Notes under the pieces: model-generated
What the model was told of the DNA's origin: nothing
The model's database searches: none
The model's input: the letters and a program-made list of their open reading frames with translations, nothing else
From: a virus
Length of the DNA stretch: 22,598 nucleotides
Direction: 5' to 3' (one strand)
Virus record (IMG/VR): IMGVR_UViG_3300033151_000583
Coordinates: 1-22,598 of that record
Position numbers and translations under genes: made by a program
Shown: in pieces, positions 2,496 to 13,422 of the stretch
Position numbering within the stretch: position 1 is the first letter of the stretch
How the letters are laid out: every line of letters begins with the position of its first letter

Positions 2496-2524
2496 TTGAC
2501 ACCTTTCCGAAAAAAGAGCAAAAT
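2496..2524 (+). promoter_or_regulatory. Promoter of C4 module A
   Basis: A -35 element TTGACA (6/6 to consensus), a 17-base spacer and -10 CAAAAT (4/6). Transcription would start near 2531, just ahead of the structured leader, the C4-like RNA and the ORF6N operon. Confidence 0.65.
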
Positions 2525-2571
2525 GAAGTCGTCCTTACAAAAGGACAACGGTTTTAGTAGGCCGTTCGTGG

Positions 2572-2611
2572 TACGAGGTGTTAGCGCACCTTTCGGTAAT
2601 GCGCTTTTTTT
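2572..2611 (+). terminator. Conserved leader motif and T7-tailed hairpin, module A
   Basis: TACGAGGTGTTAG is followed by hairpin AGCGC-ACC-TTTC-GGT-aat-GCGCT (2583-2605) and a seven-T tract, then ATG. The same order (TACGAGGCGTAG, hairpin, seven Ts, ATG) occurs at 12518-12577. It looks like an intrinsic terminator placed between the promoter and the C4-like RNA, so it could act as an attenuator or as an end point for an upstream short RNA. Function is inferred. Confidence 0.55.
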
Positions 2612-2635
2612 ATGCCAAAAATTTACCATCATTAT

Positions 2636-2708
2636 GATGGGCGTATTCTGGGAGACTTCGGTCTGCCGTACCCTTGTACACGGTCTACTAACCCGATTTA
2701 CGCCCATC
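2636..2708 (+). ncRNA. c4: C4-type antisense RNA, copy A
   Basis: A 73-nt element closed by a perfect 10-bp stem, GATGGGCGTA with TACGCCCATC. Inside are the motif TTCTGGGAGA, hairpin 1 (GGAGAC-TTCG-GTCT(G)CC, 2651-2667), hairpin 2 (GTAC-CCTT-GTAC, 2668-2679) and the tract GGTCTACTAACCC. Hairpin 2 contains CCTTGTAC, an 8-nt perfect complement of GTACAAGG (2751-2758), the Shine-Dalgarno region of the next micro-ORF. CTACTAA (2685-2691) complements TTAGTAG (2718-2724), and GGTCTACTA (2682-2690) complements nine bases inside the micro-ORF (2789-2797). In phages P1/P7 the C4 RNA is cut from the same transcript and blocks translation of icd, and so of ant. The layout here is identical. The identification rests on structure, complementarity and context, not on a covariance-model search. 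Confidence 0.78.
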
Positions 2709-2766
2709 GCCCTATGTTTAGTAGCATTTCGCGCTGGTCTTCAATCTTTAGTACAAGGATCAGATC

Positions 2767-2913
2767 ATGAACAATCTATTCAACACGCTAGTAGACCTAG
2801 CACCCAACCGTTACAACTTCACACTGTTAGCCCTGCAATCTCGTTCACTGGATACTGTCAAGCGCGTGCGCTTTGCGGTGATGCTGCCTTTATTGCGTTT
2901 AATGGGGGTATAG
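2767..2913 (+). CDS. Icd-like micro-ORF, copy A
   Basis: A 48-residue ORF (MNNLFNTLVDLAPNR...) ending one base before the ORF6N gene start. AAGGA at 2754-2758 is its Shine-Dalgarno, and this is the sequence covered by the C4-like RNA. It is homologous to the micro-ORF at 12738: both have LFNTLV near the start, LALQSR in the middle and DTVKRVR-AV-LPLL at the end, with the last region basic then hydrophobic. In P1, icd is a short ORF whose translation is required for ant translation; the same coupling is expected here because the next start codon is one base away. Conservation of the peptide in two copies suggests that the product itself may matter, not only its translation. Confidence 0.75.
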   Translation: MNNLFNTLVDLAPNRYNFTLLALQSRSLDTVKRVRFAVMLPLLRLMGV

Positions 2914-2914
2914 C

Positions 2915-3505
2915 ATGAACTTCTTAAATCTTACTATCAATCATATCGACGTTCCTGAAATTGAATTTAAACAAGAGCGTGTTTTACCGCTTAAATTAAT
3001 TGACCAAATTCATGGCCGTCCTGATGGAACAGCAAGACAACGCTTTAACGACAACAAGCAATATTTTGTTGAAGATGAGGATTATTTTGCATTATCCGCG
3101 TCCGAATTTCATACGCGGATATGGGAAAGTTTTGGCTTTAAACCAAAATCAACCAATGGAACATTAGTCACAAAAACAGGCTATCTGTTACTAGTAAAAA
3201 GTTTTACTGATGATCTTGCCTGGGAAGTGCAGCGACAATTAATTGCCGGTTACTTTATTGATAAGCCCGATTATTTACAGCTTAAATTTTCTGATTTTAG
3301 CGGCAATCTTAAAGAGATCCGTGCTATTACACAGTTATTGCCCAGCGTCACCGATGCTTTGCTATTAAAAACCCTATGGCATGAACTAGAGCAACGTCAC
3401 TCATTTGCTGGATTGCCTTCACCCGATTTTACTCTTCTAGGTAAAGACTCTAAGCAAACCAGCTTACCCGGCTTTAATACAGAAATGCAGGGAGGCCAGT
3501 CATGA
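2915..3505 (+). CDS. ORF6N-domain antirepressor-type protein
   Basis: A 196-residue protein. Residues about 20-120 match the phage ORF6N domain: VLPLKLIDQIHGRPDGTARQ, DEDYFAL, the LVTKTGYLLLVKSFTDDLAW segment and VQRQLIAGYF. ORF6N domains are found in phage DNA-binding and antirepressor proteins, usually with a KilA-C or other C-terminal domain. Here the C-terminal 75 residues are of unknown type. It starts one base after the micro-ORF stop and overlaps the next gene by four bases (ATGA), so it heads the replication operon and is probably controlled by the C4-type RNA. By analogy to P1 Ant it would antagonise the CI-like repressor; this is inference. Confidence 0.8.
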   Translation: MNFLNLTINHIDVPEIEFKQERVLPLKLIDQIHGRPDGTARQRFNDNKQYFVEDEDYFALSASEFHTRIWESFGFKPKSTNGTLVTKTGYLLLVKSFTDDLAWEVQRQLIAGYFIDKPDYLQLKFSDFSGNLKEIRAITQLLPSVTDALLLKTLWHELEQRHSFAGLPSPDFTLLGKDSKQTSLPGFNTEMQGGQS

Positions 3506-3834
3506 ACACTATTAGCGTAGAAGAGCTAAAAAACAAATTTAAACAAGAGCAAGAAAGCAAGTTAGGCTATAAAGTTCCTGTTTTAGATACTGAATTTTTA
3601 CTGAAGCGTGTTAGGGATGGCGGACAATCAGGTGATTTTTTAGCAAGAGCCTTTTTGTCGGCTTACTTTCACAGCCCATTCAGCTTGTCATTAGGCCAGA
3701 TCACTAAAATTGATAGTGACGGGATGCGATTATTTCACGAGATCATGCATATTCGGCATGTTTCTGGTTGGTCTGATGATGAATATTACCGAATTGCGGT
3801 AAAAATTCAGGCATTAAATGGAGCTGGCTCATGA
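3502..3834 (+). CDS. Small phage protein, paralogue 1 (LLKRVR-GGQSG family)
   Basis: A 110-residue protein starting at an ATGA overlap with the ORF6N gene. It shares with the gene at 4019 the segments FLLKRVRDGGQSGDFLARAFLS, then a D-G-RLFH pattern (DSDGMRLFHEIMHIRHV) and a C-terminal helix following W-SD/SE. The overall shape resembles small phage proteins of the DUF7673 kind, but I am not sure of that link. No catalytic motif is visible. Its place between an antirepressor-type gene and DNA-modification and replication genes suggests an early function. Confidence 0.65.
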   Translation: MNTISVEELKNKFKQEQESKLGYKVPVLDTEFLLKRVRDGGQSGDFLARAFLSAYFHSPFSLSLGQITKIDSDGMRLFHEIMHIRHVSGWSDDEYYRIAVKIQALNGAGS

Positions 3835-4022
3835 ATACTGAATGTTTAGACTACGCCCTAGCCAAGCAAATCCCCCTGGGCGGTGAAAAAATAACTCTGG
3901 ATACTGACTTCGGAGCCTTAACACTGGAAGGCGATGTCGGGCGCAAAGCCGTTAAAGCCTTGCGTCTGGTAATTAATGGCGAATTAAAGCGCGTGGCAAA
4001 TGCGCAAGGGGGCCAGCGATGA
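3831..4022 (+). CDS. Hypothetical phage protein
   Basis: A 63-residue protein, unrecognised. It begins MNTECLDYALAKQIPLGGEK and has alternating hydrophobic residues in the middle (ITLDTDFGALTLEGDV) followed by a basic helix (RKAVKALRLVINGELKRV). It overlaps both neighbours by four bases (ATGA at each end), lying exactly between the two paralogous GGQSG genes, so the three are translationally coupled. Confidence 0.6.
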   Translation: MNTECLDYALAKQIPLGGEKITLDTDFGALTLEGDVGRKAVKALRLVINGELKRVANAQGGQR

Positions 4023-4372
4023 ATGCCCCAGTAACGTTAGTTAGTGGCAATGGACATAACGTCTCACTCGACGAAATATTGCAGCGCGAAGCTAAGGAGC
4101 GCGGCATCACCCCGATGCGGCTAGAGCGTGATTTACTGCTAAAGCGCGTTAGGGCTGGCGGCCAGTCTGGTGCTTTTCTGGGTAAGGCGTTTTTGTCGGT
4201 TTGCGATATGAGCAATTTTAAAGAGTCTCTGGGCCGTCTTGTTTATCTGGACGCTGAAGGATTTCGATTATTTCATCAGATATTACATATTCGCTATATA
4301 CCGCACTGGTCTGAAACTGAAAACCAGAAAATAGCCGATGAAATCGAAACGCTTTTAAGCCTACCATACTAA
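4019..4372 (+). CDS. Small phage protein, paralogue 2 (LLKRVR-GGQSG family)
   Basis: A 117-residue protein related to the gene at 3502. Shared features are LLLKRVRAGGQSGAFLGKAFLS, the DAEGFRLFHQILHIRYI block and W-SETE near the C-terminus. It has an extra N-terminal part (SLDEILQREAKERGITPMRLERD) not aligned to paralogue 1. Retention of two diverged copies in one operon, with a different small gene between them, suggests either subfunctions or a heteromeric complex; both readings are inference. The start is fixed by the ATGA overlap with the gene before it. Confidence 0.65.
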   Translation: MNAPVTLVSGNGHNVSLDEILQREAKERGITPMRLERDLLLKRVRAGGQSGAFLGKAFLSVCDMSNFKESLGRLVYLDAEGFRLFHQILHIRYIPHWSETENQKIADEIETLLSLPY

Positions 4373-4382
4373 AAGGATTGCT

Positions 4383-4571
4383 ATGTGCAGTATTCCACTG
4401 ACCAATAAAGGCTGGTTGCGGCAGCATTTGCCGCAGCTGACCAGGGATGATCTATCCCGATTCGAGCGGTTTTTTAATACCCGTATGCACGGTGTTAACA
4501 ATCCGACTACCGAGCAAATTAATCATGCACGTTGGGGTGCTTATCAGCGATTGATGGGGGTGGTGGCATGA
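4383..4571 (+). CDS. Hypothetical phage protein
   Basis: A 62-residue protein, unrecognised. It begins MCSIPLTNKGWLRQHLPQLT; the second half, FERFFNTRMHGVNNPTTEQINHARWGAYQRLM, looks like two helices with a Trp/Arg/His-rich surface. AAGGA lies 8 bases ahead of the start and its stop overlaps the methyltransferase start by four bases (ATGA). The gap of 10 bases from the previous gene keeps it in the same operon. Confidence 0.6.
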   Translation: MCSIPLTNKGWLRQHLPQLTRDDLSRFERFFNTRMHGVNNPTTEQINHARWGAYQRLMGVVA

Positions 4572-5479
4572 ACCACCTTGATTTATTTTCAGGCATAGGC
4601 GGTTTTAGTCTTGGGCTAGAACGTGCCGGAATGAATACAGTAGGGTTTTGTGAACAAGATCCCTATTGCTTGAGTAAGCTTGATAAACACTGGCCAGACG
4701 TGCCTAAACACAGCGATATAAAAACCTTAACAGGAGAGATAATTGAACGCGAAATGGGTCAAATCGATGTTATCAGTGGTGGATTTCCTTGCCAGCCCTT
4801 CAGCCACGCCGGACAGCAAAAAGGCCAGCAGGATGACCGCCACCTCTGGCCGGAGATGTTACGAATTATCGCCCAGACAAGACCCACTTGGATTATTGGC
4901 GAAAACGTTACTGGTATCATCGCCTTGGCACTCGATGATGTGCTTTATGACCTGGAGAGTCAAAACTACACCGCGCAACCGTTTATTATTCCAGCTGCAT
5001 CTGTTGGAGCCATCCATAGGCGCAACAGAGTGTGGATTGTGGCCCACACCCACACGATCGATAGCCGACAAAGAAGTAGCCAGCAGCCAGAAGGGGCGGA
5101 CGTTGATCGCCTTTGCCAAGGGATTACTACCCACACCAGTAGTGTCGGATTCCACGCGGGGGTCGAATATGCCCAACAACAAACGCGGCATGACACTAAC
5201 CGACCTATCCGGCAGCAACCATCAAAAGTGGGACAAGGTGATCATGCTACCCAACAGCCAGGAGCATTTGAGCAAAAAGAGAGTGCACCACGATCAACTC
5301 AACAATCGCGTTATTATAGAGACACATGCGAACCCATCGGAATGCCTACTCAACCCGCAATTTGTCCAAGAAATGATGGGCTTCCCGACAGGGTGGCTCG
5401 ATTAAAAGCGCTGGGTAATGCGGTGGTGCCGCAAATTCCAGAGATCATTGGTCGGGCTATAATGGGGGTGGGGGTATGA
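4568..5479 (+). CDS. dcm: DNA (cytosine-5) methyltransferase
   Basis: A 303-residue enzyme that transfers methyl from S-adenosylmethionine to C5 of cytosine in DNA. Motif I is DLFSGIGGF (residues 4-13); motif IV GGFPCQPFS (71-79) contains the catalytic Cys75; motif VI ENV is at 112-114; motif VIII HRRNRVW is at 150-156; and motif X ALGNAV is at 281-286. Residues 160-270 are the target-recognition region, rich in Gln/His/Arg. I start at 4568 because the ATG overlaps the preceding stop as ATGA and directly precedes motif I. No restriction enzyme is adjacent, so it is probably an orphan phage enzyme protecting DNA from host nucleases. A second open frame of 663 bases lies inside it (see the entry at 4743). 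Confidence 0.93.
   Translation: MNHLDLFSGIGGFSLGLERAGMNTVGFCEQDPYCLSKLDKHWPDVPKHSDIKTLTGEIIEREMGQIDVISGGFPCQPFSHAGQQKGQQDDRHLWPEMLRIIAQTRPTWIIGENVTGIIALALDDVLYDLESQNYTAQPFIIPAASVGAIHRRNRVWIVAHTHTIDSRQRSSQQPEGADVDRLCQGITTHTSSVGFHAGVEYAQQQTRHDTNRPIRQQPSKVGQGDHATQQPGAFEQKESAPRSTQQSRYYRDTCEPIGMPTQPAICPRNDGLPDRVARLKALGNAVVPQIPEIIGRAIMGVGV
4743..5405 (+). CDS. Overprinted ORF within dcm (WPTP / LNPxFV-MMGFPxGW family)
   Basis: The +1 frame of the dcm gene is open for 220 codons and its product does not look random. It reads ATSGRRCYELSPRQDPLGLLA, then FMTWRVKTTPRNRLLFQL, CGLWPTPTRS, LLPTPVVSDST and finally LNPQFVQEMMGFPTGW before the stop. From memory these blocks are the hallmarks of a common phage protein set usually annotated as methyltransferase-like or hypothetical. 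No Shine-Dalgarno is evident at the ATG, so expression could need internal initiation or a +1 frameshift. Either the overlap is translated, or the family's apparent conservation merely mirrors conservation of dcm in the other frame. I cannot tell which from one sequence. Confidence 0.35.
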   Translation: MNAKWVKSMLSVVDFLASPSATPDSKKASRMTATSGRRCYELSPRQDPLGLLAKTLLVSSPWHSMMCFMTWRVKTTPRNRLLFQLHLLEPSIGATECGLWPTPTRSIADKEVASSQKGRTLIAFAKGLLPTPVVSDSTRGSNMPNNKRGMTLTDLSGSNHQKWDKVIMLPNSQEHLSKKRVHHDQLNNRVIIETHANPSECLLNPQFVQEMMGFPTGWLD

Positions 5480-6198
5480 ACTGTAATAAATTGATTAATT
5501 TTATAGATAAAAATATCCCCATTTGTCCACAAGATTACCTAGCTAAAGTTAAGTATATTAAACAACTAATAATTGATTCTGTTAAATTCGATTTTATATC
5601 AACCTCTTTGATACATATAAAACACGAAGAAGAAATTAATTTTGTTAATTTACCATTCGATAAAATGTATTGTGAAATTAAAGAAAGTCATGGAGAAATA
5701 ATAGCCGTTGTTTTTGAAATGATCGAAGGTTATTTATACGGATATTATTTTAATCAAAATATGACCACAGGAATAGAATTCAACAAAGTAGGGCAAGATT
5801 TTAAAGTTCACAAAAATGGTGTAACTCCTCTTAGCCAGGTGGGAGCTGAGTATGTATTAAATAATGTATTAATAATACTTAAATTCATACAGTTATTAAA
5901 CTGCTCAAACATCACCACAGAAACCCACCAACCCTCAGAAAAATTAAATAAAAAAAGGCTAAAAAGAGGAAAACTCCCTTTATTTGAATATAAAACTTTA
6001 GTCCTGCCAGGCACTCACGTACAGGCACAAGAACATCAAGGCGGATCGCATGCAAGCCCTCGCTGGCATGTTAGACGCGGCCATATCAGACGATTACAAA
6101 ATGGTAATGAAATCTGGGTGGAATCTTGCTCAGTTGGATCTATAAAAACAGGGATCATCAATAAAGATTATCGTGTTGAATTAGGTGGCATTGAATGA
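5476..6198 (+). CDS. Conserved phage protein with basic C-terminal domain
   Basis: A 240-residue protein. The N-terminal two thirds is Asn/Ile/Lys-rich and AT-rich relative to neighbouring genes, with aromatic residues (EGYLYGYYFNQN). The C-terminal 85 residues are of a type I recall from many phage replication regions: LNKKRLKRGKLPLFEYKTLVL, then GGSHASPRWHVRRGHIRRL, and a final G-IKDY-like strand (GIINKDYRVE). The basic His/Arg cluster suggests nucleic acid binding, but the family has no established function that I know of. It is joined to both neighbours by ATGA overlaps, between dcm and the primase gene. Confidence 0.65.
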   Translation: MNCNKLINFIDKNIPICPQDYLAKVKYIKQLIIDSVKFDFISTSLIHIKHEEEINFVNLPFDKMYCEIKESHGEIIAVVFEMIEGYLYGYYFNQNMTTGIEFNKVGQDFKVHKNGVTPLSQVGAEYVLNNVLIILKFIQLLNCSNITTETHQPSEKLNKKRLKRGKLPLFEYKTLVLPGTHVQAQEHQGGSHASPRWHVRRGHIRRLQNGNEIWVESCSVGSIKTGIINKDYRVELGGIE

Positions 6199-8921
6199 AC
6201 TACGACCTAACCCCACAAATAACCGACCGCCTAAAAACCCATTACCATTTTAAACCCCGTGGCGAACACTTACGCGAAGGGGTTTGCCCTGAATGTGAGA
6301 AAAAATCATTATGGACCTGGAAAGCCACCCCCGGCATGGTGCAATGTAACCGCGTATCAAAATGCGGTTACACCGAAACCACTAAAAACCTGTTTCCTGA
6401 TCTATACCAGGAACTGGATAAAAAATACCCAGCCACCCAGGAAAACCCAAACGCCACAGCAGATTCCTATCTAGCCCTGGTGCGCGGGTTTCCACTGGAT
6501 AATCTGCGTGGTGCCTATACCCAGCATAGTTACTGGCACCCAAAAGGCGACCGTGGCAGCACCTCTATTCGGTTTTATCTGGATATGGCCAATGGCGTTT
6601 ACTGGGAGCGGTTAATTGATGATGTCACGCTAACACTCGACGATGGCTGTACAGAAATCCGTAATAAATCGTTTAAAGGCTCATTTCGCGGCCTTTGGTG
6701 GATGCCCCCAGGGCAAAAAATAGAGGCGCGTGATCAGGTTTATTTAACCGAGGGGGTTTTTGATGCGATTGCTCTATGGCTGTCTGGAAAAAAAGCCTGC
6801 GCGATTATGTCCGCCGGATCACTGCCCAAAGCAACCCTAGAAAAGCACTTTCATCTAAATATAGTTTGGGTACTAGCACTGGATAACGACAAAGCGGGGC
6901 GCAGCTACACGCGCAAACACGTTAAATGGCTAAAGGAGCACAACCAGAAAACCAGCGCCCTGTTTAGTAGCGATGGGGAGAGCAAACATGACTGGAATGA
7001 TTTATACCAGGAAAATAAACTGACTCAGGAGGATTTACGCGACTACCGATATTTCGGACGGCTGGAGCTGGTCAATAGTGCGCAGGATAAAGCGCAGTTA
7101 ATTTATGATCATCACCAGGGTAAAAAACGTTTTTTTGTGTTTAATCACTTTAACTGTATGTACCGATGCACCGTTAATAAAGAGAAATACGACGATGCCA
7201 GCAAAGATTTAAGCGATACAGAGAACAGCAAGGAAGCCCCCAAAAGCAGTACCGAAGTATTAAACGGATCTTTTTCTATGTCTGCCGAGGTGATGAAAGA
7301 ATCCAACTGCATTACCTCACTACTCTATGTGTTGGAAAGCAATATCGGCGAAGACCCGGTGTACTGTATTCGTGTTGATTTTGAGAATAGCACCCCAACC
7401 ACGCTGATATATTTTTCGGGTGCGGCGCTTAGTAGCCCCACCGAATTTAAAAAAGCGCTGTTTGTGAAAGCCCCTGGCGCACGGATTAAAAAGTCCGCTG
7501 CATCTCATGAAATGATGATAGAAGAATGGTATAAGGAGAAACTTATGAACGTAATTACCCTGGAATATGCGGGCTATAATAAAAGCAATCAGGCCTATAT
7601 CTTTAATGATTATGCGGTGCAGAATGGCAAAGTTATTAAGGTCAATCAGGATGATTATTTTGAATTAAAAGCCGGAGGGATGAAAACCGCCATTCCGTTA
7701 AAACAGAAACTGACCCAAACGCCGTCGGTTAACTGGTATCAGGATTTTAAAGCGGCCTATGGTATGGGCGGTCTGGTGTCATTATCCTGGTGGGTGGGCT
7801 CATTATTTGCCGAACAAATTCGCCAGGAATATCGAAGTTTTCCTTTTTTGGAAATTATTGGTGAGGCGGGGTCGGGTAAAACCGATCTGGAAACCTTTTT
7901 ATGGAAAATAACTGGACGAGAGGGTGATAATTTTAACCCTAACAGCTCCAGCTTTGTGGGGGTGACGCGGAAATTATCACAATTGTCGAATATGCCCATT
8001 GTGTTTAATGAAACCGATAACGAAACCGCCGCGAAAAGTAATCACCTGAAAAAGTTTAATTGGGATGAATGGAAGGGATTATATAATGGCGAAATTGACC
8101 GCCATACCGGGGTAAAAACCCAGGATAATAAAACCCGAAGCTCACCTTTTCGCGCGGCTTTATGTGCTATTCAAAATATCCCTGTGGTGGCTAGCGAAGC
8201 GATACTGTCCCGATTTTTACATGTACAAATAGACCGTGCGCACCATACGCCCGAGGGGAAAAAAGCCAGCGACCGGTTAAACAGTCTGGATATTGAACAG
8301 GTCAGTGGCTTTATGCTGCATGTGTTAACGCAAGAAAAAGCCATGTTAAAGCGGTTTTCAGCGCGGTTTATTGAGCATGTAATCACGCTATCTAATAATG
8401 AACTGGTTATGATGCATAGGATCATGGAAAACCACGCGCTATTGATGGCATTTACCGATTGCTTGCCGCTAGTGATTGATATCCCTGAGCAGGATATTAA
8501 CAAAATGCAAGATACGATTATCGGAATGGCAGAAACAAGGCAGCTGGCTTTAAAAATGGACAGTGTACAGGTGGTGCAATTCTGGGACAATTTTGACTAT
8601 TTAAATACCCGGTTTACCAGCCATAGAGGAACAGAGTCCGGTGTTGGTGAGCATGAGATCAATCATCATAAAACCCCGGAGGATTATATTGCGGTCAGTA
8701 TTCGCGAATATTTTCAGCTGGCCAGACGTTGTGAATTGCCGTTTATTGATCATACTGAGTTACATAAGATTTTAACCACCAGTGTAGAAAATGAGTATAT
8801 AAGCCACGGCACGGTGATTACCTCGCGTATTACTAAAAAACAGATACGGTGTTTTATGTTTAAAACGCCGGAGAAAAAGGCCAGGGACTTGAGGAATAAG
8901 GCGGAGCGGAAGGGGGGGTAA
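6195..8921 (+). CDS. Phage replication primase/helicase (zinc finger, TOPRIM, P-loop ATPase)
   Basis: A 908-residue multidomain replication protein. At the N-terminus Cys31, Cys34, Cys51 and Cys57 form a primase-type zinc ribbon. A TOPRIM fold follows: YLTEGVFDA with Glu186, and LALDNDKAGR with Asp230 and Asp232 for metal binding and primer synthesis. The C-terminal part has a Walker A motif GEAGSGKT (556-563) and a Walker B-like MPIVFNETD (600-608), as in helicases of the DUF927/P4-alpha kind. It probably primes and unwinds phage DNA. It is the last gene of the ATGA-linked operon. The gene ends with a seven-G run immediately before the stop. I cannot assign it to a named phage homologue. Confidence 0.88.
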   Translation: MNYDLTPQITDRLKTHYHFKPRGEHLREGVCPECEKKSLWTWKATPGMVQCNRVSKCGYTETTKNLFPDLYQELDKKYPATQENPNATADSYLALVRGFPLDNLRGAYTQHSYWHPKGDRGSTSIRFYLDMANGVYWERLIDDVTLTLDDGCTEIRNKSFKGSFRGLWWMPPGQKIEARDQVYLTEGVFDAIALWLSGKKACAIMSAGSLPKATLEKHFHLNIVWVLALDNDKAGRSYTRKHVKWLKEHNQKTSALFSSDGESKHDWNDLYQENKLTQEDLRDYRYFGRLELVNSAQDKAQLIYDHHQGKKRFFVFNHFNCMYRCTVNKEKYDDASKDLSDTENSKEAPKSSTEVLNGSFSMSAEVMKESNCITSLLYVLESNIGEDPVYCIRVDFENSTPTTLIYFSGAALSSPTEFKKALFVKAPGARIKKSAASHEMMIEEWYKEKLMNVITLEYAGYNKSNQAYIFNDYAVQNGKVIKVNQDDYFELKAGGMKTAIPLKQKLTQTPSVNWYQDFKAAYGMGGLVSLSWWVGSLFAEQIRQEYRSFPFLEIIGEAGSGKTDLETFLWKITGREGDNFNPNSSSFVGVTRKLSQLSNMPIVFNETDNETAAKSNHLKKFNWDEWKGLYNGEIDRHTGVKTQDNKTRSSPFRAALCAIQNIPVVASEAILSRFLHVQIDRAHHTPEGKKASDRLNSLDIEQVSGFMLHVLTQEKAMLKRFSARFIEHVITLSNNELVMMHRIMENHALLMAFTDCLPLVIDIPEQDINKMQDTIIGMAETRQLALKMDSVQVVQFWDNFDYLNTRFTSHRGTESGVGEHEINHHKTPEDYIAVSIREYFQLARRCELPFIDHTELHKILTTSVENEYISHGTVITSRITKKQIRCFMFKTPEKKARDLRNKAERKGG

Positions 8922-8934
8922 TGAGGATATTAAC

Positions 8935-8961
8935 GGGTATCGTCCCCTTTTATACCCTTTT
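8935..8961 (+). terminator. Weak terminator-like hairpin after the primase gene
   Basis: GGGTAT and ATACCC (8935-8940 / 8952-8957) form a 6-bp stem with an 11-base loop and are followed by four Ts. It lies 13 bases after the primase stop and separates the operon from the cassette array. Confidence 0.45.
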
Positions 8962-9018
8962 ATACTATTGCTAGAAAATCAATGTTTTGTAAAGTGAATT
9001 TTAAATTAAGGGTATCTT

Positions 9019-9222
9019 ATGAGTGAGTACAGCCAAGGAATTTGCGATGATGAAGCGGTAATACTTAAAAATGGACAGCCTTTAACTATTAAGCAAATAT
9101 TAATAGCGCTTAGAACGGTTGAAGAAATAAAGAACTGGGATGTCAATAATAAAATGAAACAGGGAGAGTTCTTATTGCCGCAGCGATTAAGAAAAAAAAT
9201 ACAACAGATTACAGAAACATAA
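9019..9222 (+). CDS. Cassette ORF 1, hypothetical
   Basis: A 67-residue protein, unrecognised, starting MSEYSQGICDDEAVILKNGQ. The middle is a helical segment (LTIKQILIALRTVEEIKNW) and the C-terminus is basic (LPQRLRKKIQQI). Its TAA stop forms part of the R'' box of the following attC site, typical of a cassette gene. AAGGG precedes the start. No attC is visible upstream, so it would be the first member of the array as preserved here. Confidence 0.6.
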   Translation: MSEYSQGICDDEAVILKNGQPLTIKQILIALRTVEEIKNWDVNNKMKQGEFLLPQRLRKKIQQITET

Positions 9223-9350
9223 CGACAGTAGTTTAGGTGAAACCGACTGGGCTACCACAGCCCTTTAAGAAAACGGTTTTCTTAAAGGACAAACTGAAAT
9301 TTTTTAAAAAAACCGCTCTGTCGGTTTTTACACTGCAACGTATTGTTATG
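9219..9350 (+). repeat. attC: attC site 1
   Basis: It begins ATAACGA at the stop of ORF 1 and ends TTGTTATG; these ends pair over seven positions with one G-T wobble. Inner structure includes AAACCGAC / GTCGGTTT and a 12-bp hairpin CCTTTAAGAAAA / TTTTCTTAAAGG. The expected cleavage point is between G9345 and T9346. It is less similar to the other two, which resemble each other closely. Confidence 0.62.
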
Positions 9351-9379
9351 TGGCGGTACTACTACGCGGAGATAAGTTT

Positions 9380-9628
9380 ATGGCATTAGAAATTCCATAT
9401 GTTTTAAAAAAAAATGGCATGTATTACGCCCATAAAGACTGTGGTTACGTTTCAAGGGTTTTACTAGCAGAATTGTATGAAGAACATTATGCCAAAAATT
9501 ATGCTAAAAAAAATGAAGACGTAAGTGCTATACCAATTAATGAATTATTAACTGGAGCCAGCGAGGTTAAAGAATATTTGGATAGAATGCAAATCATGTA
9601 TGACACAATGAAATTATTAGCCACATAA
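9380..9628 (+). CDS. Cassette ORF 2, hypothetical
   Basis: An 82-residue protein, unrecognised. It begins MALEIPYVLKKNGMYYAHKDCGY and has a C-terminal acidic/helical part (GASEVKEYLDRMQIMYDTMKLL). I place the start at 9380 because GGAG precedes it by 8 bases; the in-frame codons further upstream belong to the end of attC 1. The TAA stop lies within the R'' box of attC 2. The Tyr-rich centre (LYEEHYAKNYAKK) has no motif that I know. Confidence 0.62.
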   Translation: MALEIPYVLKKNGMYYAHKDCGYVSRVLLAELYEEHYAKNYAKKNEDVSAIPINELLTGASEVKEYLDRMQIMYDTMKLLAT

Positions 9629-9752
9629 CGCCCTGCTCAGGTGACGCAGGCAGGGCTACGAATGAGCTATTTAATAGCTCAGAAATTTAACTAAATGGCA
9701 ATCTACCCAAACGAACTGCGCGGCCTGCGGTCGCATGGAGTAGATTGTTATA
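9625..9752 (+). repeat. attC: attC site 2
   Basis: Ends ATAACG / TGTTAT pair (R boxes), then two unpaired bases, then CTGCTC / GAGTAG pair (L boxes, one G-T wobble): the R-spacer-L layout of attC. Inside are hairpins GCCCTGC / GCAGGGC, TGAGCTATT / AATAGCTCA and CAATCTAC / GTAGATTG. Confidence 0.75.
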
Positions 9753-9771
9753 AATTTTTACGAGGTGATTT

Positions 9772-9957
9772 ATGGATAGAGCAAATAAAGCACAAATAGC
9801 TCTAGCAATTAGTGCTCTTGATATTACTACACAAAACGAATCTGTTTTTGTGATAAAAAACCACAGGGCTGATTTTGTTGATGCACCTGTTATGGCTAGA
9901 AATGAATTTAACGGAAAAAAAGGAAAGAAAGGTAAATTCTTAAGGGATTGGGAATGA
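9772..9957 (+). CDS. Cassette ORF 3, hypothetical
   Basis: A 61-residue protein, unrecognised. It starts MDRANKAQIALAISALDITT after a good Shine-Dalgarno (GAGGTG, 6 bases before the ATG). The C-terminus is strongly basic and Gly/Lys-rich (NGKKGKKGKFLRDWE), which could contact nucleic acid or be unstructured. The stop is 3 bases before attC 3. Whole cassette length, from cut site to cut site, is about 335 bases. Confidence 0.6.
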   Translation: MDRANKAQIALAISALDITTQNESVFVIKNHRADFVDAPVMARNEFNGKKGKKGKFLRDWE

Positions 9958-9960
9958 TTT

Positions 9961-10087
9961 ATAACGCCCTGCTCAGCTGACGCAGGCAGGGCAACGAATG
10001 AGCTTAAGCAAAGCTCAGATTTTAACTAAACGACAACCTACTTCAACGAACTGCGCGGCCTGCGGTCGGCTGGAGCAGATTGTTATA
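9961..10087 (+). repeat. attC: attC site 3
   Basis: Very similar to attC 2. R boxes ATAACG / TGTTAT pair, two bases are unpaired, and L boxes CTGCTC / GAGCAG pair perfectly. GCCCTGC / GCAGGGC and TGAGCTT / AAGCTCA hairpins are kept with altered loops, so the stems are conserved while the loop sequence varies. Confidence 0.78.
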
Positions 10088-10139
10088 TGCGTATTTTTAT
10101 AATGAATTAAATTTATTTTACTTTATTTACATTCTTTTC

Positions 10140-10167
10140 TTTACTGTTACGCGTAACACTGTATAAT
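10140..10167 (+). promoter_or_regulatory. Cassette 4 promoter with palindromic operator
   Basis: -35 TTTACT and a perfect -10 TATAAT, spaced 16 bases. The spacer contains the 14-bp perfect palindrome TGTTACGCGTAACA (10145-10158). A palindrome between -35 and -10 is a typical repressor site. The core TTACGCGTAA recurs at 16771. Confidence 0.6.
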
Positions 10168-10211
10168 GGTACACAGAGTTTAGAAATTCTCTAAACAAAC
10201 GGAGTAAGAAA

Positions 10212-10526
10212 ATGAAAACAGTTGAAATTGAGAACGTTAGATTAGATGTTACATACAGAACTAATAGCGAAATGAGAACTAAATCCAGCTTTGCAGGAAA
10301 AACTTATAACCAAGGGCTTGCATGTGATGTTTACAATGTGTCTGGAGGTGAACATGTAGCGTTAATCTTAAACTCAGTAAACGGTGACATATTAAATTCT
10401 ACTACTGTTATCAGCATAGAAGAATATGATCAAATATTAGAACTTTACGAGCCAACAGCTGCTGGAAGATACCATACCGCGTTGCTTGAAAGATGTGGTG
10501 CTGAAAACCATTTACAAATACATTAA
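10212..10526 (+). CDS. Cassette ORF 4a, hypothetical
   Basis: A 104-residue protein, unrecognised. It starts MKTVEIENVRLDVTYRTNSEM after GGAGTAAGAAA. It alternates likely beta strands (VYNVSGGEHVALILNSVNGD) with a C-terminal helix (SIEEYDQILELYEPTAAGRYHTALL). It has its own promoter with an operator-like palindrome and a following small basic ORF two bases downstream. Such two-gene, self-promoted cassettes in integrons are often toxin-antitoxin pairs, but no toxin motif is visible, so that is only a suggestion. Confidence 0.6.
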   Translation: MKTVEIENVRLDVTYRTNSEMRTKSSFAGKTYNQGLACDVYNVSGGEHVALILNSVNGDILNSTTVISIEEYDQILELYEPTAAGRYHTALLERCGAENHLQIH

Positions 10527-10528
10527 TA

Positions 10529-10696
10529 GTGGCAACAACAAAAGAAAGACAAGCAGCGTTTCGTAAAAGAAACGCTGCACTTGGCAGGTCAGAGCTTCGC
10601 GGAATAATTGCAACTAAAGAAGAGCAAACATCATTAAAAATCATGATTAAATCAATGCTAAAAGAATTAAGAAAACAAACAGACCTAAGCATATAA
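10529..10696 (+). CDS. Cassette ORF 4b, small basic protein (GTG start)
   Basis: A 55-residue ORF from GTG 10529, two bases after the ORF 4a stop. The sequence KERQAAFRKRNAALGRSELRG, then TKEEQTSLKIMIKSMLKELRK, resembles a class of small phage and plasmid proteins with a KERQAA(F/L)RxR start that are probably ribbon-helix-helix-like DNA binders. There is no ATG in a sensible position, so the start depends on GTG and coupling to ORF 4a. It could be the regulator that binds the palindrome in the cassette 4 promoter; this is inference. Its TAA stop is embedded in an ATATAACG motif like those at the attC sites. Confidence 0.5.
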   Translation: MATTKERQAAFRKRNAALGRSELRGIIATKEEQTSLKIMIKSMLKELRKQTDLSI

Positions 10697-10740
10697 CGTT
10701 TCAGCTTACCTGCCACAAGCGGAAAACCACTAAATTATGA
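10693..10740 (+). repeat. Possible truncated attC 4
   Basis: ATAACG at the stop of ORF 4b repeats the R'' box seen at the other cassettes, followed by TTTCAGCTTACCTGCC. No matching GTTAT right end is found before the next gene. CCACAAGC (10712-10719) has its complement GCTTGTGG inside that next gene. It is probably a broken site marking the right edge of the array. Confidence 0.35.
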
Positions 10741-11435
10741 ACGGAGAAAAGACTTTGAATAACCAAAAAACTAACCCTGAAAACGGTGCTGCTTGTGGTC
10801 AGAGTACAGCGCCTTGTTCTGTCGCGGTATCGCTCTTTGATTACACTGGAAATATCTTGTTACCCTGGCTGAATGCTGGCTATAAATGCTATGCGCTCGA
10901 CTTGCAACACACTGGTAAAAAAGATGATGGAATAAACAGGATACATTACGATTTATCAAAACCATGGCTTCCACCATTCGCACAGCATGAGATTGCCGTG
11001 GTCTTTGCCTTTCCTCCTTGTGACCACCTAGCAGTGAGTGGAGCGAGATGGTTTAAAGGTAAAGGGCTTAGGAAACTGGCCGACAGTATAAACCTGTTTG
11101 CTACTGCTGCCGAGTTTTGCGAATGGGCGAAAGCACCCTACTTAATCGAAAACCCAGTAAGCACGATAAGCAGTTACTGGAGAAAGCCTGATTGTACCTT
11201 TAACCCTTCTGATTATACCGGCTTTTGCAGGGAGGACAATTACAATAAAAAGACCTGCTTATGGACAGGCAATGATTTTGTAATGCCCGAACCTTTTTTT
11301 GCAGATGATGTCGGAGAACCGGACGACAGGATACACCGAATGCCGCCTGGCGCTGATCGCAAAAACTTACGAAGTGCTACACCAATGGGATTTGCTCAAG
11401 CTGTTTTTGAGTCCAACTCCGGTGTTGGCCTGTAG
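10737..11435 (+). CDS. C5-type DNA methyltransferase-like protein (phage family)
   Basis: A 232-residue protein. SLFDYTGNILLPWL (32-45) is a variant of motif I (SAM binding) with YALD following. FAFPPCDHLAVSGARWF (90-106) is the motif IV region with Cys95 as probable nucleophile. IENPVST (137-143) stands where ENV is usual. STISSYWRKPDCTFNPSDYTGF and CLWTG are features I recall from a phage family annotated as DNA cytosine methyltransferases. A TRD and motif X are not obvious, so substrate and activity may differ, for example hydroxymethylated or other modified pyrimidines. The first 27 residues do not align and the true start may be later, because no Shine-Dalgarno precedes 10737. It lies next to the cassette array and may have been acquired with it. 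Confidence 0.7.
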   Translation: MNGEKTLNNQKTNPENGAACGQSTAPCSVAVSLFDYTGNILLPWLNAGYKCYALDLQHTGKKDDGINRIHYDLSKPWLPPFAQHEIAVVFAFPPCDHLAVSGARWFKGKGLRKLADSINLFATAAEFCEWAKAPYLIENPVSTISSYWRKPDCTFNPSDYTGFCREDNYNKKTCLWTGNDFVMPEPFFADDVGEPDDRIHRMPPGADRKNLRSATPMGFAQAVFESNSGVGL

Positions 11436-11504
11436 CAACAGAACAGTTAACTAGGTATATTCTATAATATCGAAATAGACAGAATTAAACTTTTATCACT
11501 GTAA

Positions 11505-11560
11505 AATGCTGGGTTACATCTCTTCGCTACGCTAGAAAATCTAACCCGGCCTACGGTTTA
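11505..11560. repeat. REP-like hairpin between convergent genes
   Basis: GGGTTA and TAACCC flank TCTTCGCTACGCTAGA, next to CCGGCCTACGG. Such GGGTTAC...GTAACCC palindromes near a CCGGCCTAC tail are common intergenic repeats in gammaproteobacteria. It sits between two convergent genes, where it may also act as a bidirectional 3' end. Confidence 0.45.
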
Positions 11561-11570
11561 TAATACGATA

Positions 11571-12143
11571 TTAATCACTCAGGTAATTTTTATTCAGACA
11601 CACATGCTGGCCGTGCAGGTACGCTGCCAAGGCTCTGGCATGGTTAAATACATCACTATGCCCTGATGCATTAAACAAGCGCTTGGTCTCATGATTTACC
11701 ACACGGCTATCATTTCCCTGATACCCATAACGGCCCATTTCTCCCCAGGGGCTAAAGGGGATAAATCGCGCGGTTGTTACTGTCACATCATCGACATTAT
11801 GCAACACATCAACCCGCCGCAACGTTTCCCAGGCGTCAAAATCCGTGTCTTTATCCAGTGCCGGGTTAATCAGAATCAAACGACTAAATTTAGCCCCTTG
11901 TTTGCACGCGCGTACTAAAATATCACAGCCATTAGAGTGTCCGATACCGATAGCACCCGCAGGCGTCATACCCGCCACTACTCGCGCAATATTTTTATTA
12001 AAAAACCGCACTCCGAACAGATCAAAAAAACCATAATCAGCCTGTAAAACTTTATGCTCGGGTAAATAGGGCAATAATGTATCAATGGTCTTTTTACCGT
12101 TATCGCGCACATTAAAACCGTGTACTAAAACTAAAGTGCTCAT
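11571..12143 (-). CDS. Alpha/beta hydrolase, phage-encoded
   Basis: A 190-residue single-domain alpha/beta hydrolase. LVLVHGF (4-10) supplies the oxyanion-hole HG, GIGHSNG (66-72) is the nucleophile elbow with Ser70, ASGHSDVF holds the probable catalytic His162, and the acid is likely in NVDDV (116-120). The substrate is not predictable; a lipase/esterase acting on host envelope or a metabolite is possible. No signal peptide is seen, so it is cytoplasmic. It overlaps the Ogr-like gene by four bases (ATGA) and is transcribed with it, so its expression is tied to the switch to late genes. A hydrolase paired with an Ogr-type regulator looks like accessory (moron) cargo. Confidence 0.8.
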   Translation of the reverse strand: MSTLVLVHGFNVRDNGKKTIDTLLPYLPEHKVLQADYGFFDLFGVRFFNKNIARVVAGMTPAGAIGIGHSNGCDILVRACKQGAKFSRLILINPALDKDTDFDAWETLRRVDVLHNVDDVTVTTARFIPFSPWGEMGRYGYQGNDSRVVNHETKRLFNASGHSDVFNHARALAAYLHGQHVCLNKNYLSD

Positions 12144-12394
12144 GTAAATAAATCTCCCTGAATAAGTTGCTGGCGCTCGCTATGCTCTAATTTATTAATT
12201 AAAGCGGCGGCAATTTGTAGCGTGGTTTTTTGGGGTGGGTTAATATCGTGCTTAAATGCCAGGGTCGCGACAAACGAAGCCCCGCATTTTTGCGTGTTGG
12301 TACATTGGCAGTATAAATCTTTGACCTTGATAGACAGGTCATTACTTGAGGTTATTAAGGCTTTGGTGTGGCAGTGCGGACACAATATGCGCAT
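12140..12394 (-). CDS. ogr: Ogr/Delta-type zinc-finger late transcription activator
   Basis: An 84-residue protein starting MRILCPHCHTKALIT. Cys5-x2-Cys8, then Cys29/Cys31 and Cys37 in YCQCTNTQKCGASFV, match the Ogr/Delta pattern (CX2C, a central gap, then CXC/CX4-5C before A/S-x-F). In P2, Ogr binds zinc and activates the late promoters of the head and tail genes with the host RNA polymerase alpha subunit. The P2-type head genes start 1.4 kb to the right. I start at 12394, where AGGAG precedes by about 9 bases; the open frame further upstream has no such signal. It overlaps the hydrolase start as ATGA. Confidence 0.85.
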   Translation of the reverse strand: MRILCPHCHTKALITSSNDLSIKVKDLYCQCTNTQKCGASFVATLAFKHDINPPQKTTLQIAAALINKLEHSERQQLIQGDLFT

Positions 12395-12422
12395 ACTATA
12401 AACTCCTGATTTAGAGAGTTTA

Positions 12423-12453
12423 ATTATACTGTATACAGTAAATATGGTGTAAA
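12423..12453 (-). promoter_or_regulatory. Promoter of the ogr-like gene with overlapping palindrome
   Basis: On the minus strand -10 TATAAT is at 12428-12423, with a possible -35 TTTACA at 12453-12448 (19-base spacing). The perfect 14-bp palindrome TACTGTATACAGTA (12427-12440) overlaps the -10. A repressor bound there would block expression of the late activator. It has CTGT and ACAG half-sites but is too short for a standard LexA box. Confidence 0.55.
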
Positions 12454-12484
12454 TATAGGGTTTGTGTTTTAAACACCCGTATAA

Positions 12485-12513
12485 TTGACCCTTAATAAAA
12501 TCCCTGCTATTAT
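12485..12513 (+). promoter_or_regulatory. Promoter of C4 module B
   Basis: -35 TTGACC (5/6), a 17-base spacer, -10 TATTAT (5/6). Predicted transcription starts near 12520, at the conserved TACGAGG motif. It has the same layout as the promoter at 2496, but is stronger at the -10. Confidence 0.7.
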
Positions 12514-12517
12514 TCTT

Positions 12518-12574
12518 TACGAGGCGTAGAAACCTTGAGAGCGGAACCCGCACCCGATAGATAGCGGTTTTTTT
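12518..12574 (+). terminator. Conserved leader motif and T7-tailed hairpin, module B
   Basis: TACGAGGCGTAG, then a stem AACC(C)GC / GCGGTT (12545-12551 / 12564-12569) ending in seven Ts followed by ATG. It is the counterpart of 2572-2611. Another hairpin, AGTTAT-A-CGG...CCG-A-ATAACT (12592-12616), follows before the C4-like RNA. Confidence 0.55.
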
Positions 12575-12624
12575 ATGACTAACGATTATTCAGTTATACG
12601 GAAATTCCGAATAACTAAGATTAT

Positions 12625-12692
12625 GAGTTAGGAGTCCTGGAGAATAACCAATATTCAGGGCAGTGCTTTCGCTGTTTCTACCCTCCTAACTC
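12625..12692 (+). ncRNA. c4: C4-type antisense RNA, copy B
   Basis: A 68-nt element closed by a perfect 10-bp stem GAGTTAGGAG / CTCCTAACTC, with the motif TCCTGGAGA, hairpin 1 (GAATA-ACCAA-TATTC), hairpin 2 (CAGTG-CTTT-CGCTG) and the tract TTTCTACCC, the same order of parts as copy A. Hairpin 2 positions 12666-12671 pair with TGAAGG (12724-12729), the Shine-Dalgarno of the next micro-ORF (6 pairs, 2 of them G-U). TTTCTAC (12675-12681) pairs perfectly with GTAGAAA (12714-12720). Both duplexes are collinear and separated by three bases on each strand. The parts that pair with the target differ from copy A, so the two RNAs should not cross-regulate. Confidence 0.78.
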
Positions 12693-12737
12693 TCCTTAAT
12701 TGGAGTTCATTAAGTAGAAAAAATGAAGGAAATCATC

Positions 12738-12893
12738 ATGCAAGTATTATTCAATACATTGGTGGCAATCGTGCCACTACACCATAAAACCTCAATCCTA
12801 GCCCTGCAAAGTCGCTATACCGATACGGTAAAGCGCGTGCGCCTTGCAGTGTTACTACCACTGTTGAAAACTCAGGAGGTGAACCATGGATAA
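12738..12893 (+). CDS. Icd-like micro-ORF, copy B
   Basis: A 51-residue ORF starting MQVLFNTLVAIVPLHH, homologous to the one at 2767 (shared LFNTLV, LALQSR, DTVKRVR-AV-LPLL). AAGGA lies 7 bases before the start, in the tract targeted by C4 copy B. Its stop lies 8 bases inside the Bro-N gene, so the two are translationally coupled. The peptide is amphipathic: a hydrophobic start, a basic middle and a hydrophobic LPLL end. Confidence 0.75.
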   Translation: MQVLFNTLVAIVPLHHKTSILALQSRYTDTVKRVRLAVLLPLLKTQEVNHG

Positions 12894-13422
12894 TTTAAAA
12901 ACCCTTGAAAACCCGTTACAGTTTCTTGAAAATGACGTGCGTACCGCCATCGACACTTATAATGAAGTCTGGTTTTGTGCGCGTGATGTCTGCGAAATTT
13001 TAGACATTACCTGGTCAGGTGCCACGCTTGAAAATGTCAAAAAAGAGTGGGTTATGATGTTGGAACTCAACACCATAAAGGGGAAAAGAGAGACAAATTT
13101 TATAAGCATTGGCGGCGTCTTTCATTTAATTATGCGCTCCAATAAACCCAATGTGATGGAATTTCAGCACTGGGTTTGTGGTGAGGTTCTGCCCTCTATC
13201 TGGAAAACGGGCGGTTATGGTCAGTTAGCCCCTAAAGATTATATTGCCGTGGTTAAACAAATTGCTGATTTAACCCAGCGACTCACCGACAGCAATAACG
13301 CCTTTACCCGCAAACTGCTCTTAAAACCTTTGCAAAATCTGTGCAATATGGCCGGCCATCCTATGCCTGAGTTAACTCTATTGTCTGTACAACTGGATCA
13401 GCTCGATTTATTTGAGGAGTAA
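12886..13422 (+). CDS. Bro-N-domain antirepressor-type protein
   Basis: A 178-residue protein. Residues about 12-105 form a BRO N-terminal domain: NDVRTAIDTYNEVWFCARDVCEILDI, then FISIGGVFHLIMRSNKPNVMEFQHWV and VLPSIWKTGGY. BRO-N is a DNA-binding domain found in phage antirepressors and insect-virus BRO proteins. The C-terminal 70 residues are helical and end with LDQLDLFEE; no ANT or KilA-C domain is evident. AGGAGG at 12873-12878 is a strong Shine-Dalgarno 7 bases before the ATG, within the overlapping micro-ORF, so its use may depend on micro-ORF translation. By analogy to P1 Ant it would relieve repression, but the target is unknown. Confidence 0.82.
   Translation: MDNLKTLENPLQFLENDVRTAIDTYNEVWFCARDVCEILDITWSGATLENVKKEWVMMLELNTIKGKRETNFISIGGVFHLIMRSNKPNVMEFQHWVCGEVLPSIWKTGGYGQLAPKDYIAVVKQIADLTQRLTDSNNAFTRKLLLKPLQNLCNMAGHPMPELTLLSVQLDQLDLFEE

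Follow-up and report, generated by a model that had tools for sequence, protein, structure and literature searches.

Two antirepressor modules in one phage

The window analyzed here, the whole 22,598-base viral record IMGVR_UViG_3300033151_000583 from IMG/VR, carries two modules on its plus strand in which a promoter, a leader with a terminator hairpin, a folded antisense RNA, a small open reading frame (ORF; hereafter the micro-ORF) and an antirepressor-type gene follow one another. All of the evidence presented below comes from sequence. An earlier note had placed the modules at 2496-3505 (module 1) and 12485-13422 (module 2) and described in each a promoter, a hairpin followed by seven T's (T7), a 10-bp stem enclosing two inner hairpins and a micro-ORF, and these elements were indeed found where it had put them. 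The coding parts of the modules are as follows.

2767-2913, plus: micro-ORF 1, 48 amino acids, stop one base before the antirepressor 1 ATG
2915-3505, plus: antirepressor 1, 196 amino acids, ORF6N domain (Pfam PF10543, E 2.5e-11, 44.2 bits, above the cut-off)
12738-12893, plus: micro-ORF 2, 51 amino acids, overlapping the antirepressor 2 start by 8 bases
12886-13422, plus: antirepressor 2, 178 amino acids, Bro-N domain (Pfam PF02498, E 6.2e-20, 72.1 bits, above the cut-off)

The domain matches bear out the ORF6N and Bro-N assignments of the note, and antirepressor 1 also matches the anti-repressor family PHROG 4608 (E 1.8e-33). The two micro-ORFs share sequence, as had been proposed, being 58% identical with an alignment score of 127, whereas none of 2,000 shuffles scored above 40. 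Because the start of each effector gene adjoins or overlaps the end of its micro-ORF, translational coupling of the two is expected in both modules.

The note had named the micro-ORF icd after the c4-icd-ant operon of phages P1 and P7. That name has to be dropped, since a comparison of micro-ORF 2 with P1 Icd gave no BLASTP alignment at E<=100. Family searches found no match to micro-ORF 1, and searches of viral contigs and phages found no relative of the micro-ORFs. Relatives came from whole genomes only (E 0.002 to 0.008), two clear ones being upheld by reading of the locus and by shuffles; the relatives in L172 and L153 lie between a C4 RNA and a Bro-N gene, and that in L157, a locus also numbered L027, is interrupted by a stop. 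The micro-ORF is thus conserved, yet it is unlike P1 Icd, and a better analogue is orf45 of the Gifsy-1 prophage, a 45-amino-acid ORF that, according to passages of PMC4825925, is translated before anrP and coupled to it.

Module 1 matches Rfam C4

The RNA elements of module 1, all on the plus strand, are as follows.

2496-2524, plus: predicted sigma-70-type promoter, TTGACA-17-CAAAAT, 10 of 12 consensus matches
2553-2560, plus: a1 target site TTTAGTAG, pairing with a' (CTACTAA) of the C4 RNA
2571-2578, plus: b1 target site GTACGAGG, 8 pairs with b' CCTTGTAC, one of them G-U
2584-2611, plus: leader terminator hairpin with T7 tail, predicted fold
2630-2714, plus: C4 antisense RNA (Rfam RF01695, 53.5 bits, gathering threshold 45, E 6.1e-8)
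2636-2645/2699-2708, plus: 10-bp closing stem, predicted fold
2652-2664, plus: hairpin 1
2665-2684, plus: hairpin 2, with b' CCTTGTAC in its loop at 2672-2679
2685-2691, plus: a'
2717-2724, plus: a2 target site TTTAGTAG, pairing with a'
2751-2758, plus: b2 target site GTACAAGG, 8 Watson-Crick pairs with b' CCTTGTAC

The order of these elements is that annotated in P1 (a1, b1, C4, a2, b2, icd, ant), and the leader terminator sits where it does in isrK/c4-a1b1 loci. The b2 site covers the Shine-Dalgarno sequence of micro-ORF 1, and the b'/b2 helix has a shuffle p of 0.0025. On the plus strand of the window, GTACGAGG at 2571 and GTACAAGG at 2751-2758 are sole copies, and TTTAGTAG has one copy besides those at a1 and a2. 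The promoter is weak evidence by itself (2 sites found against 0.6 expected). Judged by its family match and its layout, module 1 is a true C4 module.

The note had also seen TACGAGG as a motif common to both modules. The two occurrences do not amount to a common motif: that of module 1 forms the b1 core, and that of module 2 just borders the a1 hairpin.

Module 2 carries an RNA outside Rfam

The RNA elements of module 2 are as follows.

12485-12513, plus: predicted promoter, TTGACC-17-TATTAT with TG before the -10 element, 10 of 12 consensus matches
12519-12574, plus: leader of the sRNA-Xcc1 class, with the a1 hairpin, b1, GCGG/CCGC/GCGG arms and T7
12526-12533, plus: a1 target site GTAGAAAC
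12536-12542, plus: b1 target site TGAGAGC, pairing with GCTTTCG of hairpin 2, G-U included
12592-12616, plus: hairpin just 5' of the RNA, with a similar hairpin in L012
12622-12696, plus: antisense RNA (model R3, 70.7 bits, E 4.6e-17, an optimistic value; see below)
12625-12634/12683-12692, plus: 10-bp closing stem, predicted fold
12636-12659, plus: hairpin 1, AATAACCAATA loop
12661-12674, plus: hairpin 2, with b' at 12665-12671
12675-12681, plus: a' (TTTCTAC), facing GTAGAAA at 12526 and 12714
12714-12720, plus: a2 target site GTAGAAA, 7 pairs with a'
12724-12730, plus: b2 target site and Shine-Dalgarno sequence TGAAGGA of micro-ORF 2

Here, too, the promoter is weak evidence by itself (1 site found against 1.4 expected). 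For the leader, whose T7-tailed hairpin ends at 12574, we built a covariance model (R1) from 33 aligned leaders of the sRNA-Xcc1 class (Rfam RF02221), with the window left out of training. R1 matched the module 2 leader with 51.9 bits (E 6.5e-10) and also matched locus L013 with 42 bits. This match places the module 2 leader in the sRNA-Xcc1 leader class.

The note had taken both antisense RNAs for C4 and had asked for a search with the Rfam C4 model, which recovered module 1 and gave no match to module 2 up to E 5 (C4 cut-off, 45 bits). The related family c4-2 (RF02944) was absent from the window at E<=1, in a search that lacked a working positive control, and from a cmscan against all Rfam families, which found no credible match to module 2. 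The module 2 RNA did not match sRNA-Xcc1 itself (cut-off, 53 bits), and the window had no match to isrK (RF01394).

When 237 genomes from a single family were searched with R1, the search uncovered loci in which the following RNA has the shape of module 2 and is neither C4 nor sRNA-Xcc1. Seven of these (L013 included, the window left out) were aligned as A6 and made into model R3. Under a hand-written structure, 94.7% of the cells in A6 pair and 11 of the 19 pairs show substitutions in both partners. The alignment has a covariation score of 0.594, whereas shuffled versions score 0.188 and none of 500 reaches the real value. In the window, R3 found the module 2 RNA as its sole match, and in the 237 genomes it found 20 places in 15 genomes, training loci included. 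An Rfam scan of 15 loci of this short class brought no family to its cut-off at the RNA, the nearest being sRNA-Xcc1 with at most 35 bits. An earlier model of the sRNA-Xcc1 RNAs themselves (R2) was dropped, as its alignment was poor, it held three base pairs and it did not find module 2.

Module 2 resembles sRNA-Xcc1 in the class of its leader, in the placement of hairpin 2 and a' and in the AATA..AATA loop motif, and R3 cross-matches one sRNA-Xcc1 member (L036, E 1.6e-4). It differs in that its hairpin 1 lacks the top hairpin ACCCGNAAGGG and in falling below the cut-off of the Rfam model; the short class as a whole looks like sRNA-Xcc1 with AATA..AATA kept and ACCCGNAAGGG gone. On this evidence, the module 2 RNA is a member of a small class absent from Rfam and close to sRNA-Xcc1.

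RNAs pair better with their own leaders than with those of others

At 68 nonredundant sRNA-Xcc1 loci, hairpin 2 plus a' scored a mean of 18.5 (helix score) against its own leader and 13.2 against the leaders of others (z, 18; largest mean among 10,000 permutations, 14.4). In the short class, own leaders also paired better than others, both downstream (-14.4 against -8.1 kcal/mol, 16 loci) and upstream (-22.6 against -12.1 kcal/mol, 15 loci), with p<=1e-4 in each case. Across the relatives, the pairing of RNA and leader covers the Shine-Dalgarno sequence.

The window scored best in both of the short-class cross-tests. Upstream, the module 2 RNA fits its own leader best, in a duplex of -19.9 kcal/mol (shuffle p, 0.018); with the b2 region it forms a duplex of 6 plus 7 pairs, its own leader being the best of 16. 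Furthermore, the 7-base word GTAGAAA occurs in both a1 and a2 of module 2, with a joint p of 6e-5 when the values from the two shuffles are multiplied.

Several points weigh against this reading of module 2. The b' helix is short, its 6 pairs including G-U pairs; when the module 2 leader is shuffled, the duplex attains no better than p 0.05; and the R3 E-value is optimistic because the training loci were hand-picked by eye for their likeness to module 2 and the model calibration was short. The module 2 RNA also forms nearly as stable a duplex with the leader of module 1 (-12.4 kcal/mol) as with its own (-12.8 kcal/mol). The idea put forward in the note that the modules are independent plug-in switches is therefore not established, although their pairing sequences do differ, as it had said.

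Taken at the level of sequence, both modules follow the C4-type antisense plan that the note had proposed, with a' and b' facing a2 and b2 at the ribosome site as well as a1 and b1 in the leader (weakly so for b' of module 2) and with an antirepressor gene predicted to be coupled.

sRNA-Xcc1 lies before antirepressor-type genes

The core pattern of sRNA-Xcc1 occurs in at least 120 viral stretches. In the viral contigs L031 to L149, it stands directly before antirepressor-type genes, and its pairing with the ribosome sites of these genes is cognate. The Pfam domains most often matched by 77 adjoining ORFs were Bro-N (18), P22_AR_C (15), KilA-N (15), AntA (12), Rha (11), P22_AR_N (7) and ORF6N (7), several matches per protein being possible, and a copy on a Pantoea plasmid lies upstream of a Rha regulator. 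Since 2010, sRNA-Xcc1 has been described as an integron-encoded small RNA of unknown role, and a part in plant virulence has lately been inferred for it (PMC2996969, PMC12189769, PMC12444791). Among the open-access papers searched, none names it together with "antirepressor," and the link may already stand in papers beyond these. Because each RNA pairs much better with its own leader than with those of others, over the Shine-Dalgarno sequence, sRNA-Xcc1 most likely controls phage antirepressors in the manner of C4.

Among 50 viral records with sRNA-Xcc1, 7 also hold C4 and 17 hold two or more copies of sRNA-Xcc1. Several modules per phage are therefore common, and we rejected the notion that two in one genome are exceptional. 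Tandem sRNA-Xcc1 cores ~250 to 550 bases apart were seen in L105 (7043-7309), L096 (1198-1470) and L068 (2286-2843).

Viral contigs hold relatives of the Bro-N effector (L002 to L009) that stand behind C4 or sRNA-Xcc1-type elements; most follow C4 with isrK/c4-a1b1 leaders, and L007 follows sRNA-Xcc1. A scan of genome contigs gave two loci. The ORF6N effector had no confirmed relative in viral contigs. At ~1250-1500 of L156, another RNA scaffold precedes a Bro-N gene, with GTGAGAT on both sides; by eye, it is neither C4 nor sRNA-Xcc1.

Setting of the modules

The phage is of the P2 kind. Its portal protein matches PHROG 68, with less than 60% identity to the portal genes of P2-like phages. The following genes were also placed.

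6195-8921: primase (PHROG)
12140-12409, minus: late activator of the Ogr/Delta type

Because a relative of the Bro-N effector sits in a Methylovulum genome (L012), the host is likely a methanotroph. Two neighboring ORFs (3502-3834 and 4019-4372) have the stretch LLKRVRxGGQSGxFLxxAFLS in common and seem to be paralogues; neither matches Pfam or NCBIfam.

Comparison with known systems

Both modules share with the P1/P7 operon a leader with a1 and b1, an antisense RNA, a2 and b2 on the ribosome site, a small ORF and an adjoining antirepressor gene, and the module 1 RNA belongs to the same Rfam family. They differ in that the small ORF is unrelated to Icd, the effectors are of the ORF6N and Bro-N types and the module 2 RNA is not C4.

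The isrK-orf45-anrP region of Gifsy-1, as passages of PMC4825925 describe it, is similar in having a terminated leader RNA, an RNA of ~80 nt processed from the read-through transcript and a small ORF coupled to an antirepressor. The window differs from it in lacking an isrK match, and in the published model the leader has an activating role, the short leader RNA, IsrK, having been shown to switch on translation of the read-through mRNA; no C4 RNA is named in those passages. The processed Gifsy-1 RNA behind IsrK, STnc1160, is itself probably a C4-like antisense RNA; the same passages liken it to the CI RNA of phage P4. Like the antisense RNAs proposed here, P4 CI RNA is an antisense RNA processed out of the transcript that encodes it, and its targets flank it (cited in passages of PMC4825925). 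It differs in acting by ending transcription, and the comparison is one of description.

Proposed mechanism and alternatives

The anatomy of the modules, the covariation in their structure and the cognate pairing support a model, in which we are confident, of each module as an RNA switch of the C4 type that controls a single antirepressor. Module 1 would use the C4 scaffold, and module 2 would use the unlisted scaffold next to sRNA-Xcc1. Transcription from the promoter would yield a leader with the a1/b1 sites and the terminator, and a read-through transcript would carry the folded antisense RNA of ~70 to 85 nt, then the micro-ORF and then the antirepressor gene. The antisense RNA would be cut from this transcript; the enzyme is probably RNase P, which is cited in passages of PMC5320573 as processing the P1/P7 C4 RNA. 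The a' and b' stretches of the free RNA would pair with a2 and b2 and hide the Shine-Dalgarno sequence of the micro-ORF; since the antirepressor start is predicted to be coupled to the micro-ORF, the antirepressor would then not be made and lysogeny would be kept. The terminated leader RNA, with its a1 and b1 sites, would bind the antisense RNA and may be a decoy that relieves the block.

A refinement that we hold possible, though with rather less than even confidence, is that the module 2 leader is also an attenuator. Arm 1 (GCGG, 12541-12544) pairing with arm 2 (CCGC, 12548-12551) would keep the terminator, formed by arm 2 and arm 3 (12564-12567), open, and antisense RNA bound to a1/b1 would free arm 2, so that the RNA would also stop its own transcription, like P4 CI RNA. 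The three arms are present in nearly all of the 33 aligned leaders and, as GCGG/CCGC/GCGG-T, in P1 (locus L191, 2248-2312); b1 adjoins arm 1, and a CI-like role of the processed RNA is raised in passages of the Gifsy-1 paper (PMC4825925). The arms are nearly invariant, however, so that covariation cannot speak for or against them. Attenuation would add to the antisense switch rather than exclude it.

It is less likely, in our judgment, that the effectors are aimed at other prophages or at genes of the host rather than at the phage's own repressor. The ORF6N and Bro-N domains indicate just a regulator of the antirepressor kind, and RNAs of these classes sometimes precede other genes, as seen by eye with a DNA-ligase-like ORF (L019, 1611-2534) and a lipoprotein-like ORF (L198, 1689-1970); effectors besides antirepressors therefore seem to occur. 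Against this, the PHROG matches are to anti-repressors, and the commonest domains behind the same RNA plan are those of phage antirepressors. That module 2 is a decayed, nonworking C4 module, as its lack of a C4 match and its weak b' helix might suggest, is very improbable given that its RNA and leader score 70.7 and 51.9 bits against models from other loci, both of its ORFs are intact and the 7-base word of a1 recurs in a2.

Beyond the antisense switches of the window, it is probable that C4, sRNA-Xcc1 and the module 2 class are scaffolds of one phage control plan whose components (RNA body, pairing words, micro-ORF and effector) are swapped separately and that the sRNA-Xcc1 copies on integrons and plasmids are pieces captured from it. 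The target sites can be read in each scaffold, and the predictions are therefore directly testable. The analysis offers a likely function for sRNA-Xcc1, adds one RNA class that Rfam lacks and suggests that a single immunity plan is spread over several phage RNA scaffolds. If the integron and plasmid copies are indeed captured pieces, the virulence role proposed for sRNA-Xcc1 would need rereading.

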